The notes beneath the pieces are model-generated. The model was given only the letters and a program-made list of their open reading frames with translations, did not search any database and was not told the origin of the DNA. Positions 39,929 to 56,439 of a DNA stretch of 64,000 nt are shown one piece after another. The position numbers were made by a program, and so were the translations under genes. Each line of letters starts with the position of its first letter. The stretch's first letter is position 1. Source of the stretch: Armatimonadota bacterium (GTDB taxonomy: Bacteria > Bacteroidota > Ignavibacteria > OLB7); NCBI GenBank assembly GCA_020850315.1, contig JADZEY010000087.1:1-64000 (forward strand). The letters are read 5' to 3'.

Positions 39929-42900
39929 ATGAAACGTTCGCGCATTGCTTATGCCGCCACGCTTGCCGCCGCACTGTTTGCCGCACAGCAGGGGGTGGCT
40001 CAGATTCCCGGGCAGATGACCTATCAGGGGTTGCTCACCAACAGCAACGGCACCCCCTTCCCCGATGGCCCGGTGACGATGACTTTTAATATCTACGAAG
40101 GAGCAACCCCTATCTGGTCCGAAACGCAAAGCGTGCAGATCAGCAAGGGATTGTTCAACGTGACGCTGGGGCAAGGCACCTCGCTCAGCTCACTGAAATT
40201 CGATAAACCGTACCAGCTTGGCGTAACCATTGGCGGAACTGAGCTAACCCGCACGCCGCTGGTTTCGGCACCGTACGCACTAAGCGCCGCCAGCGCGCTG
40301 ACCGTTCCGAACGGTGCAATCACCACCGACAAATTGGCAAACGGCGCGGTGACGCTGGATAAACTTTCGCCAACGCTGCTGCAAAGTTTGGGAAGCACTG
40401 TTATCAATCAAATCCCCGATGGCTCAATCAACCCAAGCAAGCTAAGCACCGAAGGGAGCAGCAACGGGCAGGTGTTGGTAGTCAATAATGGCACACCACA
40501 GTGGCAAACGCTGAACAGCACAGGCGGGGGTGATATCACAGGGGTGATTGCTGGCGACGGGCTTGGCGGCGGCGGAACCAACGGCGATGTGACGTTGTTC
40601 ATCCGCCCGAACGGCATCCAAACGCCGATGATCCAGGCCAACGCCATCACCCCAGAAAAACTGGTGAACTCCGGCGTGCTGGCCGGAAACTACGGCGGCA
40701 ACACGAAGGTGGCCAAAATTACCGTTGACGCAAAAGGACGGGTAACAAACGCCCAAGAAGTTGACATTGCCGGGGCACAACCAGCCGGCCCGGCTGGCGG
40801 CGATCTGACAGATTTCTACCCGACCCCAAAGGTAGCGGGGCTGCGGGGTGTTCCCGTTTCGGCAACTGCGCCAGCCAATGGTGAGGTGCTTCGGTACAAC
40901 AGCACAACCGGACGTTGGGAGCCATCCACCGATGGCTCCAGCTTGGTGAATATCAACTCATCCAACCTTGTCGGCCCGGTCTCGCCAACCAATCTACCAA
41001 ACGCTTCCGGCGATGTGACCGGCCCACTCAGCAATCTAACAACGGCACGCATCCGCGGGACAGCCGTTTCGCTAACCGCGCCAACGACCACCGGCCAGAT
41101 GCTCCGCTACAACAACACGGCTGGACAGTGGGAGCCATCCACCGACGGTTCGGCCTTGACCAATCTGAATGCTGGACATCTGACAGGGAACTTGCCAGCG
41201 TTGAACGGTGCAAGCATCACCAACATCAACGCCACGAATATCACTACCGGAACCGTTCCGCCAGCCAACTTGCCGAACGCCGCTGGTGATGTGACCGGCC
41301 CGATCAGCAATTTGACAACGGCGCGGATTCGCGGAACGAACGTCTCCCCAACCGCGCCAACGACCACGGGGCAGATGCTCCGCTACAACAACACGGCTGG
41401 CCAGTGGGAACCATCCACCGACGGCTCGGCCTTGACCAATCTGAATGCTGGAAATCTGACAGGGAACTTGCCAGCAATCAACGGCGGAAACATTACGAAC
41501 ATCAACGCTACGAACATCACCACCGGAACCGTTCCGCCAGCCAACTTGCCGAACGCCGCTGGTGATGTGACCGGACCAATCAGCAACCTGACCACCGCAC
41601 GGATTCGCGGAACGAACGTAGCAGCAACCACGCCAACCAACGGCCAAGTCCTGAAGTTCGACGGAACCAACTGGGCACCCGCTGCCGATAACGCCGGACT
41701 CGGAACCGTCACCTCCGTTGGCCTTGCGATGCCTTCGATCTTCAACGTCAGCGGCAGCCCCGTCACCACCAACGGCACACTGGCCGCAACGCTTGCCAGC
41801 CAAACACAGAACACCGTGTTTGCCGCACCAGATGGCACAAACGGAACACCAAGTTTCCGCAACCTTGCGGCTGCTGATCTTCCCGATGCCGATGGAGATG
41901 TGACCGGAAGCTACGATGATTTGGAGTTGGAAGCCACTGGCGTAACCGCCGGAACCTACGGCAGCGCAACACAGGTCCCAACGTTTACTGTGGACGGCAA
42001 AGGCCGCTTGACCGCAGCCGGCAGCGCGACCATCACGGGCGTGACACCAGGCGGCGCAGCGGGTGGCGATCTCACCGGAAACTATCCAAGCCCGGCAGTT
42101 GCCCCGAACGCTATCACCAGCGCAAAAATTTTGGATGGAGCCGTGGGCAATGGCGACATCGCCGACGATGCCGTTACTGCCAGCAAAATTGCCGCAAACG
42201 CAGTGAGCTCTAGCGAGATTGCTACCGATGCTGTTGGAGCGAGCGAGATTGCAACAGGCGCAGTCACTACCACCGAGATTCTGGATGGTACAATTTTGGC
42301 GATTGATATGGCCCCAGGGGTAATCCCAACAACGCTTCCGCCAAGCGGTGCAGCGGGTGGCGATCTCACCGGAAGCTACCCGAACCCAACCGTGGCCAAA
42401 CTTCGCGGAACCAACGTCTCCACAACCGCGCCAACCGCTACTGGGCAGATCCTTCGATACAACAACACGCTGACCCAATGGGAGCCCTCCACCGATGGCT
42501 CATCGCTGACCAATCTGAACGCAGCGAACATCAGCGGAACCATTAATGCTGCCAATCTGCCGAACGCCGCTGGCGATGTCACCGGACCAATCAGCAACCT
42601 GACCACCGCGCGGATTCGCGGGACAAACGTAGCAGCAACCACGCCAGCCAACGGCCAAGTGCTGAAGTTCGACGGAACCAATTGGGCACCCGCTGCCGAT
42701 AACGCCGGACTCGGAACCGTCACCTCCGTTGGTCTTGCGATGCCTTCGATCTTCAACGTCAGCGGCAGCCCTGTTACCACCAACGGCACACTGACCGCAG
42801 GGCTTGCCAGCCAGACGCAGAACACCGTGTTTGCCGCACCAAACGGCGCAAACGGAACACCAAGTTTCCGAAGCCTTGTTGCTGGCGATCTTCCCGATGC

Positions 42901-52898: not shown

Positions 52899-55274
52899 AT
52901 GCTACCCTTGCGATTCTTCTACTGCTTGTTGCTGGTCTGCTTGGCAGCAACTTCCCCTCTACTTCTGGCACAGCCCAGCGGCAGCGCAAAACCAAACGAA
53001 GTCCACACCCTTCGCACCCTTGTTGACAGCTTCCGCATGGACCCAACCCGCATTGCCGATGTCTCCGGAATGATCCTGCAACGTGAGGTCGGTTCCTTCT
53101 CGTTCGAGCAAGGGACACTCTATTTCTGCACCTCGCTGAAAGGGACTATCGGTGCGGCACTGTTTGTGGGGCAGGGTGAGTTCATCTTTGCGCCACCCAC
53201 CACAGTGGAGAAAGGGCAGTTGAAACGATTTTTTGGCCAGGAGATGATGCAGCAACCGTTCACTTCGGTGCTGATGGTGTTCAGCGATTCCACCATGCAG
53301 GAGATCAGCCCTGGGCTGACGTTCCGGCAGGGGACTATCCCCGACGATGTTGCCAAAACATTCCAAGCATCGCACCGGTGGTTGTTTGCCAGCGCAGGCT
53401 ACACCTTCAACTACGAGTGCTTGAAGCTGCTGACCGCCAGCAAACCGAAGGAGATGTTTGTTGCCTGCGTCAACCCGCCAAAGCAACGCCCGGTGGTTTT
53501 TGCGGTAAACCCGTTCGAGGATGAGGAGGTGATGCTGTTCCGAAGCGATGACAACCCAAGTTTGGGTGGAAAATTTTTAGAAGTGGTCAACCAATTCCAC
53601 ACTCTGCGCGAGTACGAGGAAGGGGTTCGGCTACTTTCCGAGCATGATGAGTTAGCCGTTGACTCCTGCGTGGTTGATTGCCGTTTCCAGGATGACCTTG
53701 CCGTGCAGGTGGCTTCCAAGCTCAGTTTCCGCGTGCTGCATCCCAACCAGAAGTGGCTGACGTTCGAACTGTTCCCGGGCCTAAGTGTGGACTCGGTGCT
53801 GTGGGGCGATGGCAGCCCTGCCGATTTTTACTGGAACAATGAAGGAAATCTGTGGGTGCGGAACACACCAAACCCTGCGGTTGGCGCGGCGATTCCCGTC
53901 CGTATCCACTACCACGGCAAATTGATTGCTCGCCAGCAGGATTGGTTCATCCCCCTCTCCTCCATTGGTTGGTATCCGCAGCATGGCTACAAGCAGAAAT
54001 CCTACTTCGATCTCACGTTCCACTATCCATCCAACTATCTTCTTGCAAGCGTTGGGGAGCGGGTGATGAATCAGGAGAGCAATGATATCACCACCACCCG
54101 TTGGATTCCAGGCGGCCCGATACGGAATGCCTCGTTCAATATTGGGTTGTTCAAGGAGTACGACATCAAGATGGACAACCTGCCACCGATTACCATTCTG
54201 ATGTCTAGATCGGGACACAAGGATGCCGCAGCGCAGTTGATCCAGCAAGGCTACACGCTGGGGTCTAATATGCACGAGCAAGTGGCCGAGGATGTTGGGA
54301 ATAGCTTCCTGATGTTCACGCGGGTGTTCGGCGAGCTTCCGGTGAAGCGATTCTACGCCACCGAGATCTACGATTCGCACGGGGAGGCCTTCCCCGGGAT
54401 GCTGCACCTTGCTTGGACTACTTTTTTGCGGAACGAGGAGGAAGGGTTCGATCATATTTTCCGCGCCCACGAAGTTGCCCACCAGTGGTGGGGAATCGGC
54501 GTTGATTTTGCCAGCTACCACGACCAATGGTTAAGCGAAGGTTTTGCTGAATACTCTGGGCTGATCTATTTGCAAGCGGCACTAAAGGACAAGGATCTGT
54601 TCTTAAGCTGGATGAAAAAATTCCGCAAGCAACTGATGGGGAACCGGAAATCAATGTTCGGGAAGGGGACCGAAGGCGGGCCAATCTGGCTGGGGTATCG
54701 GACACAATCCAGCCTTACCGAAGGGGACTACGACCTTATTATCTACCTGAAAGGTGCGTGGATTCTGCACATGATTCGCAACCTTGTGATGGATCCGATG
54801 ACCATGAAAGATGACAAGTTCATGGCCATCATTCGCGATTTCTTCCAAAGCTACGTTGGCAAAGAAGCCACCACCGAGGACTTCCAACGGGTTGTAGAAA
54901 AGCATGTTGGAGTTGACATGAATTGGTTTTTCCAGCAGTGGGTGTATGGCACCGAAATCCCCACCTATCGTTTTGCCTACACGGTTTCCGACACCGTGAT
55001 CAACGAGCCGGACGCGCCCAACAAGAAGATGTACAAAATCCGCTGCCACATTCGGGCAAAGGATGTTAGCCCAACTTTCAAGATGTACGTGCCGATTCGG
55101 GTGACGTTCGATAAGGAGCGGGTGATACGAACCCGAATGGCTGTGCAAGGTGAGGTTACGGAAATCGAGCTGCCGCTGCTTCCAGAAAAACCGGAGGAGG
55201 TGATCCTGAACGATCTGGAATCGGTGCTTTGCGAAGTGGAGGCGATTGACTGGGATGAGCGGATGGAGAAGTAA
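52899..55274 (+). CDS. M1-family metallopeptidase (aminopeptidase N-like)
   Basis: A 791-residue secreted zinc peptidase with a signal peptide (MLPLRFFYCLLLVCLAATSP). The catalytic site is HEVAHQWW at about residue 525, and the third ligand Glu is in DQWLSEGFAEYSG, the HExxH-18-E spacing of clan MA. The GAMEN exopeptidase loop is replaced by PGMLHLAWTTF, so substrate handling may differ from true aminopeptidases. ATG 52899 is chosen as the start of the signal; the in-frame region back to 52743 looks non-coding. The rsmA leader follows downstream. Confidence 0.88.
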   Translation: MLPLRFFYCLLLVCLAATSPLLLAQPSGSAKPNEVHTLRTLVDSFRMDPTRIADVSGMILQREVGSFSFEQGTLYFCTSLKGTIGAALFVGQGEFIFAPPTTVEKGQLKRFFGQEMMQQPFTSVLMVFSDSTMQEISPGLTFRQGTIPDDVAKTFQASHRWLFASAGYTFNYECLKLLTASKPKEMFVACVNPPKQRPVVFAVNPFEDEEVMLFRSDDNPSLGGKFLEVVNQFHTLREYEEGVRLLSEHDELAVDSCVVDCRFQDDLAVQVASKLSFRVLHPNQKWLTFELFPGLSVDSVLWGDGSPADFYWNNEGNLWVRNTPNPAVGAAIPVRIHYHGKLIARQQDWFIPLSSIGWYPQHGYKQKSYFDLTFHYPSNYLLASVGERVMNQESNDITTTRWIPGGPIRNASFNIGLFKEYDIKMDNLPPITILMSRSGHKDAAAQLIQQGYTLGSNMHEQVAEDVGNSFLMFTRVFGELPVKRFYATEIYDSHGEAFPGMLHLAWTTFLRNEEEGFDHIFRAHEVAHQWWGIGVDFASYHDQWLSEGFAEYSGLIYLQAALKDKDLFLSWMKKFRKQLMGNRKSMFGKGTEGGPIWLGYRTQSSLTEGDYDLIIYLKGAWILHMIRNLVMDPMTMKDDKFMAIIRDFFQSYVGKEATTEDFQRVVEKHVGVDMNWFFQQWVYGTEIPTYRFAYTVSDTVINEPDAPNKKMYKIRCHIRAKDVSPTFKMYVPIRVTFDKERVIRTRMAVQGEVTEIELPLLPEKPEEVILNDLESVLCEVEAIDWDERMEK

Positions 55275-55318: not shown

Positions 55319-55347
55319 TTGTGCTTCCACGTTGATGGGGCTATATT
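55319..55347 (+). promoter_or_regulatory. Predicted sigma70-type promoter of the rsmA leader
   Basis: TTGTGC (55319-55324), a 17-base spacer and TATATT (55342-55347) form a reasonable -35/-10 pair. Transcription would begin near 55354. Confidence 0.5.
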
Positions 55348-55420
55348 GCTCCCCGTAATTGTGCTGCGCCGGGGGTACTGTCAGGGAGGCTTCGGGCGCG
55401 AATCATGGTTCCCTGCAAAC

Positions 55421-55495
55421 AAGGAGGTGATCCCATGTCTGATAGTAGTATGACGTGGGCCTCCTTCCTGAATCGCTAGCACCGTTTTCAGGAGG
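55421..55495 (+). promoter_or_regulatory. Overlapping alternative hairpins controlling the leader ribosome binding site
   Basis: In form A, AAGGAGG (55421-55427) pairs with CCTCCTT (55460-55466), extended by CCCAT (55432-55436) with GTGGG (55455-55459), hiding the ribosome binding site and start codon. In form B, CTTCCTGAA (55464-55472) pairs with TTCAGGAGG (55487-55495). The two share 55464-55466 and cannot coexist. Confidence 0.6.
55435..55479 (+). CDS. 14-codon leader peptide ORF upstream of rsmA
   Basis: ATG 55435 to TAG 55479 encodes MSDSSMTWASFLNR. It is preceded by AAGGAGGTGATCC (55421-55433), the full complement of the 16S rRNA 3' end, so ribosome recruitment would be very strong when the site is exposed. 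Its stop codon falls in the loop of form B. A regulatory leader peptide is the likely reading; a stand-alone microprotein or chance is possible. Confidence 0.5.
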   Translation: MSDSSMTWASFLNR

Positions 55496-55513
55496 AAGCT
55501 GCTACGGAATTCG

Positions 55514-55554
55514 AAGCCCCGTTCGGCAATGCCGGGCGGGGCTTTGTGTTGTTT
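55514..55554 (+). terminator. Terminator-like hairpin between leader peptide and rsmA
   Basis: AAGCCCCG (55514-55521) pairs with CGGGGCTT (55537-55544), with an inner CGGC/GCCG stem (55524-55527 / 55531-55534). TGTGTTGTTTT follows. It could terminate the leader transcript conditionally. Confidence 0.6.
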
Positions 55555-55617
55555 TGGTAGTGCAGGTTTTGCGGCGCACCTCCCTTTGCTCAATGTGCTA
55601 TTTTGCCCCAAAGCATT

Positions 55618-56439
55618 ATGGAACGGATACTCCCCAAAAAATCTCTTGGCCAACATTTTCTGACCGACCGGAACATTGCCGAAAAAATCGTGCGTGGGTT
55701 CGACCCGAAGCCAGGCGACGTTGTGGTGGAGATTGGCCCCGGCGAAGGCGCGCTGACCGGTCTGCTTTGCCAGCAAGGATGCCGCCTGATTGCGGTGGAA
55801 TTAGACCCCCGCGCTGCCGCCCGAATCCGAGCAGAGTATCAGGGGAACGTGGAAGTGATTGAGCAAGATTTCCTGACGGTTGACCTTGCGCAGATTGCTT
55901 CCCGCAGTGGCGTTGAACAGCTGCGTGTGATTGGGAATATCCCCTACTACATCACCAGCCCCATCCTGTTCCACCTGATTGATGCCGGTGCCACGGTTAG
56001 CGATGCCACGTTAATGATGCAGCTTGAAGTGGCCGAGCGGCTGGTGGCGCGGCCACGCACAAAGGAGTATGGAATCCTTGCCGTGGCACTACAAACCCAC
56101 GCTGAAGTGAGGAAGCTGTTCAATGTTGGCCCACGCTGTTTCCACCCGCCGCCGAACGTGAACTCGGCAGTGGTGGGATTGCAGTTTACCAAGCGGCCTG
56201 AGCTTGAAGGCATTGCAAAACAGCACCGGCAGATTGTTCGCGCAGCGTTTGGCCAGCGGCGCAAAACATTGCGCAACTCGTTAGCCCAATTGATCGGAAA
56301 TCCAGAGCATCGTGAAGAGCTTCTCAGAACCGCAGGAATCGGCCCCCAACAACGGGCCGAAGAACTTAGCATCGAAGACTTCCTTCGCCTCGCCCGCGTA
56401 TTCGCGCAGGCGGCGGCGGGTGGTGGCGGGAAATCGTGA
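55618..56439 (+). CDS. rsmA: 16S rRNA (adenine1518/1519-N6)-dimethyltransferase RsmA/KsgA
   Basis: A 273-residue methyltransferase that dimethylates two adjacent adenines in helix 45 at the 3' end of 16S rRNA late in 30S assembly. KKSLGQHFLTDRNIAEKIV is the family N terminus. VVEIGPGEGALTGLL is SAM motif I and VIGNIPYYITSPILFHL is the catalytic NxPY region. The C-terminal helical domain follows. ATG 55618 is used; an in-frame TTG at 55603 would add five residues. The next gene overlaps its end by about 20 bases. Confidence 0.96.
   Translation: MERILPKKSLGQHFLTDRNIAEKIVRGFDPKPGDVVVEIGPGEGALTGLLCQQGCRLIAVELDPRAAARIRAEYQGNVEVIEQDFLTVDLAQIASRSGVEQLRVIGNIPYYITSPILFHLIDAGATVSDATLMMQLEVAERLVARPRTKEYGILAVALQTHAEVRKLFNVGPRCFHPPPNVNSAVVGLQFTKRPELEGIAKQHRQIVRAAFGQRRKTLRNSLAQLIGNPEHREELLRTAGIGPQQRAEELSIEDFLRLARVFAQAAAGGGGKS

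Follow-up and report, generated by a model that had tools for sequence, protein, structure and literature searches.

A predicted small-RNA unit upstream of rsmA

In the window, that is, the whole 64,000-nucleotide stretch of DNA analysed here, the rsmA (ksgA) gene is preceded on the same strand by a compact series of promoter, structural and coding elements. The window's genome is denoted G000, and G001 (JAEUSP010000132.1, Chlorobiota MAG-306) is the sole other genome of the same genus that was compared. The features read or predicted at the locus are the following.

55319–55349, plus strand: predicted promoter of the small RNA, with TTG at 55319–55321, a 20-nt spacer and TATATTGC at 55342–55349
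55336–55511, plus strand: block of conservation in the comparison with G001
55356–55550, plus strand: predicted small-RNA transcript, its start inferred about 7 nt past the -7 box and its end given by the terminator
55366–55399, plus strand: predicted pseudoknot stem S1, GCGCCGGGG (55366–55374) with CUUCGGGCGC (55390–55399)
55382–55415, plus strand: predicted pseudoknot stem S2, CAGGGA (55382–55387, inside the S1 loop) with UCCCUG (55410–55415)
55421–55433, plus strand: extended Shine-Dalgarno (SD) sequence AAGGAGGUGAUCC, complementary to the 16S 3' tail at all 13 positions
55421–55466, plus strand: predicted hairpin A, masking the SD, 55421–55427 with 55460–55466 (7 bp) and 55432–55439 with 55452–55459 (8 bp)
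55435–55479, plus strand: micro-ORF of 14 codons, MSDSSMTWASFLNR and a stop, also in frame in G001, where it is one codon shorter
55464–55495, plus strand: predicted hairpin B, competing with A, 55464–55472 with 55487–55495 (9 bp), the stop codon lying in its loop
55512–55546, plus strand: predicted intrinsic terminator of the small RNA, 16 pairs, 11 of them G-C, then TGTTGTTTT
55618–56439, plus strand: rsmA (ksgA), a neighbour outside the element, with a probable -7 box of its own, TATTTTGC, at 55599–55606

The predicted promoter exhibits the Bacteroidota-type form TTG-N19/20-TAnnTTG, in agreement with an earlier note on this DNA that had proposed a plausible promoter here, and no sigma-70 site was found in the small-RNA promoter region. 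All 13 copies of the element described below have a promoter region of this type immediately upstream; nine carry a clear TAnnTTG-like -7 box 13–14 nt before the conserved GCTG/S1 start, often with TTG 19–20 nt farther up, and the box is less clear in the copies of families f57, f61 and f68.

Re-reading of the window located AAGGAGGTGATCC at 55421–55433, followed by ATG at 55435, and in many genomes of the window's class, G004 of the same family among them, the 16S gene has a tail matching the complement of AAGGAGGTGATCC. The anti-16S SD described in the earlier note is thereby recovered, and it is conserved in the homologues. The terminator-like stem that the note had placed before rsmA corresponds to the predicted intrinsic terminator, and homologues have a terminator at the equivalent place. 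The fold of the window's RNA lies 4.45 standard deviations below those of dinucleotide shuffles.

Within the genus, no substitution separates G001 from the window over the 173 aligned nucleotides before the terminator, where the rate observed in rsmA predicts 18.7 (P = 7e-9). G001 differs there only by one extra nucleotide ahead of the SD and by the in-frame loss of 3 nt from the micro-ORF. Their identity amounts to 89.2% in rsmA, 69% in the upstream flank and 80% in the spacer between the terminator and rsmA.

Homologues in two classes

Homologues were sought stepwise with covariance models, whose E-values are rough. A model based solely on the near-identical pair of copies from the window's genus (g1) retrieved G002 (E 4.5e-15) and G004 (E 1.5e-10), and because this two-copy model recovers both, the relationship is regarded as homology that goes beyond a shared SD. 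A model from four copies (the g1 pair, G002 and G004) led to G025, G101, G486 and G459 in other families, and a pattern search added G592 and G595. The R2 matches L185–L191 were discarded since the terminator was mainly what had been matched; for that reason the third model, R3, was built without the terminator. R3 recovered all earlier copies and also G149, G260 and G766, which were absent from its alignment when found, at E 4e-21 to 2e-23.

The total is 13 copies, one per genome, comprising the window's and 12 homologues. They fall into five families and two classes (f1 and f12 in the window's class; f57, f61 and f68 in another), the lineages of the compared genomes having been assigned by kinship only. 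The spread is patchy, with copies in 9 of 391 genomes of the window's class and 4 of 245 of the other class. Searches of plasmids, phages and viral contigs with the element yielded nothing convincing.

Several other matches were set aside. The sequence AAGGAGGTGATCCCCATG at G025:C3:20250, with a 4-codon frame, has no homologous anatomy and was taken as chance; matches to the AGGAGGTGATCC-start pattern in other genomes of the class lie mostly within coding sequence; and many exact AAGGAGGTGATCC matches come from the opposite strand of the 16S gene. The window's genome contains just one further AAGGAGGTGATCC (G000:C10:59974; L061 75–87), which has no start codon after it and lies within a stretch conserved in G001 (G001:C86:6198; L062 99–111) that is apparently coding. 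AGGAGGTGATCC is also present at 55194–55207, in the last part of the peptidase gene that lies upstream (codons ..EEVILN..), where it looks like chance because G001 has AAAGAGGTAATCC at that place. Elsewhere in the window, the same 35-nt stretch is found twice on the minus strand, at 41716 and 42727, 1011 bp apart, apparently as a repeated segment.

Relation of the element to rsmA

The earlier note had interpreted the element as a regulatory leader of rsmA that senses immature 30S subunits and attenuates rsmA transcription at the terminator. The two share a strand, only 71 nt separate the terminator from the rsmA start, and the arrangement is kept in both same-genus genomes. Against this interpretation, no such leader precedes rsmA in G002, G003 or G004, which belong to the same family, and G002 and G004 carry the small RNA at sites away from rsmA. 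The spacer that would join a leader to its gene is also only 80% identical between the congeners.

rsmA is the neighbour only in the two same-genus copies; the other 11 of the 13 lie elsewhere, three of them (G002, G595 and G766) facing a convergent downstream gene. As assigned by reading translations, without a family search, the neighbours other than rsmA are a LytTR regulator with an ion channel, an alpha/beta hydrolase, a GNAT gene and a sulfatase; recG and a NUDIX gene each lie upstream of a copy, and the convergent genes encode a lipoprotein (at the recG locus), a TonB receptor and an amidohydrolase. The location of homologues away from rsmA had been overlooked in the earlier note, as had the pseudoknot upstream of the SD.

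A box resembling TATTTTGC lies 9–11 nt before the rsmA ATG in G000 and in G002–G004, which suggests that rsmA is transcribed, nearly leaderless, from a promoter of its own past the terminator. The earlier note had itself named such a downstream start of rsmA as evidence against its model. We therefore consider control of rsmA by this element very improbable. Since the neighbourhoods differ, the promoter position is fixed and rsmA has a -7-like box of its own, the RNA is best taken as its own gene: almost certainly a free-standing transcription unit, predicted at about 190 nt, beside rsmA. On the comparison of neighbourhoods, its adjacency to rsmA is an apparent accident of position.

One further element of the leader model involved CACCTCC, which is indeed present at 55577–55583. 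Its proposed pairing with GGAGGTG is not conserved, as G001 has GCGCGCC.

A pseudoknot and a masked Shine-Dalgarno sequence

Comparison of the copies shows a predicted H-type pseudoknot upstream of the SD, at a distance of 5–8 nt, as part of their common anatomy. In stem S1, four pairs have changed on both sides over the 13 sequences, for example from C-G to U-A in four of them. Stem S2 retains GGG/CCC in all 13, and its fourth pair is A-U in some and C-G in the f57–f68 group, as judged by eye and without scoring, the stem being nearly invariant. For S1 and hairpin A, paired cells reach 94%, against 41–58% in slid controls; such pair counts depend on model-fitted alignments of 13 related sequences, and the slid controls provide the firmer comparison.

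Hairpin A, proposed in the earlier note as hiding the SD, is present and larger than claimed (7 + 8 bp), and its masking is conserved. Its 3' arm is an anti-SD within the micro-ORF (GCCUC), and the GAGG/CCUC pairing occurs in 13 of 13 copies. In folding without pseudoknots, the mean unpaired probability of the SD ranges from 0.11 to 0.42 across the 13 homologues, so that a masked SD is predicted in every one. The competing hairpin B is likewise present, with corresponding stems in homologues, and overlaps hairpin A by just 3 nt in the window. Its counterpart in most other lineages is GGGAGCC/GGCUCCC around the stop codon, from which the window's 9 pairs differ.

With such a record, the probability that chance similarity and ordinary intergenic folding account for the element is virtually nil; that reading is refuted by the independent recovery of homologues, by the covariation and pairing, and by the 0 substitutions in 173 nt.

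The micro-ORF and its predicted peptide

The 14-codon frame reported in the earlier note was found at 55435–55479, and a micro-ORF of 12–14 codons with an in-frame stop occurs in 13 of 13 copies, starting with ATG, GTG or TTG. Its translation is probable on this comparative evidence. A 24-codon version from an in-frame upstream ATG at 55405 was rejected: it is open in G000, and the extra nucleotide of G001 disrupts it there. In other lineages the predicted peptides are MSDMQKGASGDAC, MSSNLLGASGDAC, MKINIGASGKAC and MNNTFMGASAAC, each followed by a stop, and also MKTNIGASGEAW.

These data could indicate that the gene's product is a functional short peptide (a signal, a regulator or a weak toxin) and that the RNA structure serves only to control its synthesis. 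The usual C-terminus is GASGx(A)C, with GASG in 10 of the 11 non-g1 copies and GASGxAC in seven; the Ser and Gly of GASG show third-position changes only, and MSDMQK is common to three families. Moreover, the masked SD and upstream pseudoknot recall the tisB mRNA as presented in the available part of PMC7708055. The window's genus, on the other hand, is an exception, with a C-terminus lacking GASG (MTWASFLNR) even though its RNA is strictly conserved; the product, of 12–14 residues, has no evident membrane segment or signal; and GASG is partly forced, because the GCCUC encoding part of it is the anti-SD. We consider a dedicated peptide gene possible, if rather unlikely.

A second alternative is a trans-acting small regulatory RNA that pairs with mRNAs or binds a protein and whose SD and ORF tune its stability. 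Such a role would suit a strictly conserved, strongly paired RNA that is free-standing, with promoter and terminator, and an orphan in many contexts. It would fit poorly with the best-kept segment across lineages, which consists of the SD, start codon and anti-SD rather than an exposed seed, or with the retention of the ORF's length and in-frame stop by 13 of 13 copies, and it appears decidedly unlikely.

A proposed mode of action

We favour, with a probability of roughly 0.4, a self-masked micro-mRNA on which initiation would come mainly from 30S subunits with their 16S tail exposed, and whose translation would open its own SD. The SD/16S-tail duplex of the window is predicted at -24.4 kcal/mol, compared with -17.4 kcal/mol for rpsU of the same genome, which is encoded separately and has an extended SD of its own, AAAGGGAGGTGA (G000:C45; L169 1480–1500). 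In G000, G004 and G002 (family f1) the duplex lies at -23 to -24 kcal/mol and the SD has the form GAGGUGAU(C/U)C; in all three, the pairing is stronger than the -13 kcal/mol expected of clients of bS21-less or tail-exposed ribosomes, as computed with an energy routine that differs from that of the source paper.

In Bacteroidota, SD sequences are almost absent, the 16S tail is hidden, and ribosomes for the most part disregard SDs. In Flavobacterium johnsoniae, according to the available part of PMC9976891, bS21, bS18 and bS6 sequester the 16S tail. The same part of that source describes ribosomes lacking bS21 as favouring mRNAs with extended SDs, rpsU being the known client, and reports an extended-SD rpsU in all members of the class Chlorobia (PMC9976891). 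In the window, none of 37 genes has GGAGG or AGGAG upstream of its start, a rough count in that longest-ORF starts were used, and no other strong 7-mer SD was found before a start codon. As most mRNAs of the lineage do without an SD, a near full-length complement of the 16S tail would earmark the RNA for 30S subunits with an accessible tail, either bS21-less or immature. This dependence on tail-exposed 30S is put forward tentatively, from the strength of the SD and on the assumption that the tail is sequestered in this lineage too.

In the proposed sequence of events, the 5' pseudoknot, acting as a standby platform or a factor-binding site, would keep the RNA open beside the masked SD. The first ribosome to enter would translate through the anti-SD, opening the SD for the next, and hairpin B would then hold the anti-SD away. 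With unmasking by the first ribosome and this hold combined, translation would respond in a switch-like manner to how much tail-exposed 30S is present. Either the short peptide could be the output, or the RNA itself through its occupancy and stability.

The sensing of free or immature 30S subunits advanced in the earlier note thus fares differently in its two parts: a link to 30S with an accessible tail stays plausible, whereas its operation through an rsmA leader is unsupported. Against a ribosome-sensor reading, the patchy spread is odd for a basic sensor of ribosomes. A broader form of the micro-mRNA proposal, in which a stand-alone RNA class of Bacteroidota/Chlorobiota, with an alphaproteobacterial analogue, would bind or count exposed-tail 30S as a second dedicated client besides rpsU, is speculative and, in our estimation, unlikely.

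Comparison with known systems

The erm leader peptides combine a short ORF with alternative hairpins, and the Erm enzymes are relatives of RsmA. The small RNA differs in that most copies have no dependent downstream gene and the terminator closes the unit.

Searches against Rfam 15 assigned no family in the window at the gathering cut-off, and relaxed E-values gave only weak matches besides CC2171 (RF01867), a family of Caulobacter and other Alphaproteobacteria. Distant membership of that family was considered, given a common logic: an AAGGAGGUGAUCCnRUGUCU-AU start region, in which a (near-)full anti-16S SD directly precedes RUGUCU, a short ORF, orphan loci and a terminator. In some CC2171 copies an anti-SD lies near the ORF end, plasmid copies among them having GCCUCCGG there, and weak model matches coincide with the element in G000, G001, G004 and G595. 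The scores, however, reach 22–29 bits (26.7 in the window) against a cut-off of 75 and derive largely from the 16S complement and a generic terminator, and the CC2171 model placed 0 of 61 relatives over the cut-off. The reciprocal R3 search of CC2171 loci gave only local matches (E 0.11–0.2), the best of them confined to the SD region. The pseudoknot region has no match there, no equivalent of S1/S2 was seen, and the ORF is longer (24–26 codons in the copies read). The likeness thus appears to be one of outline, in a shared architecture of anti-16S SD, short ORF, orphan position and terminator, and distant membership of CC2171 seems quite improbable.

CC2171 copies on plasmids or chromids of Methylobacterium, Azospirillum and Skermanella (L171, L172, L174 and L178) have short ORFs after a (near-)perfect anti-16S SD (VSHCLNQPLTSAYRTWNVASGAHA, VSHCSKPRSSFTVTKVFASGGIYA); despite such ORFs, CC2171 is classified as a non-coding sRNA, and the literature searched held nothing on its function beyond lists. 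On Azospirillum plasmids (L175, L177 and L179, from 1503), a 57–59 residue ORF (MSHGA(S/K)PV..) has the same start region, AAAGGAGGTGATCCNATGTCTCATGGAGCC, and is followed in two of the three by a carbonic anhydrase gene. On a Methylobacterium radiotolerans plasmid (L170 2557–3037), the CC2171 copy is followed at a distance of about 0.9 kb by a 16S rRNA gene.

In the tisB toxin mRNA, as described in the available part of PMC7708055, a 5' pseudoknot enables translation from a masked ribosome-binding site. The structured 5' end, with a pseudoknot upstream of the masked site of a small ORF, is a shared trait; the standby site of tisB lies about 100 nt from the ribosome-binding site (PMC7708055), compared with 5–8 nt between pseudoknot and SD here, and no toxin-like peptide was seen in the small RNA.

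The rpsU mRNA of Bacteroidota, through whose extended SD bS21 controls its own synthesis, resembles the small RNA in its exceptionally strong SD, which can pair with as many as 13 nt of the 16S tail, and in being transcribed alone (PMC9976891, available part). It differs in encoding bS21 rather than a product of 12–14 residues, and that part of the source mentions neither a pseudoknot nor a self-masking anti-SD. The previously undescribed small RNA gene adds to the known repertoire an RNA outside Rfam 15 and an ORF of 12–14 residues that annotation pipelines skip. As a separate gene with an SD stronger than that of rpsU, it would offer a second handle on whether exposed-tail ribosomes have dedicated clients.
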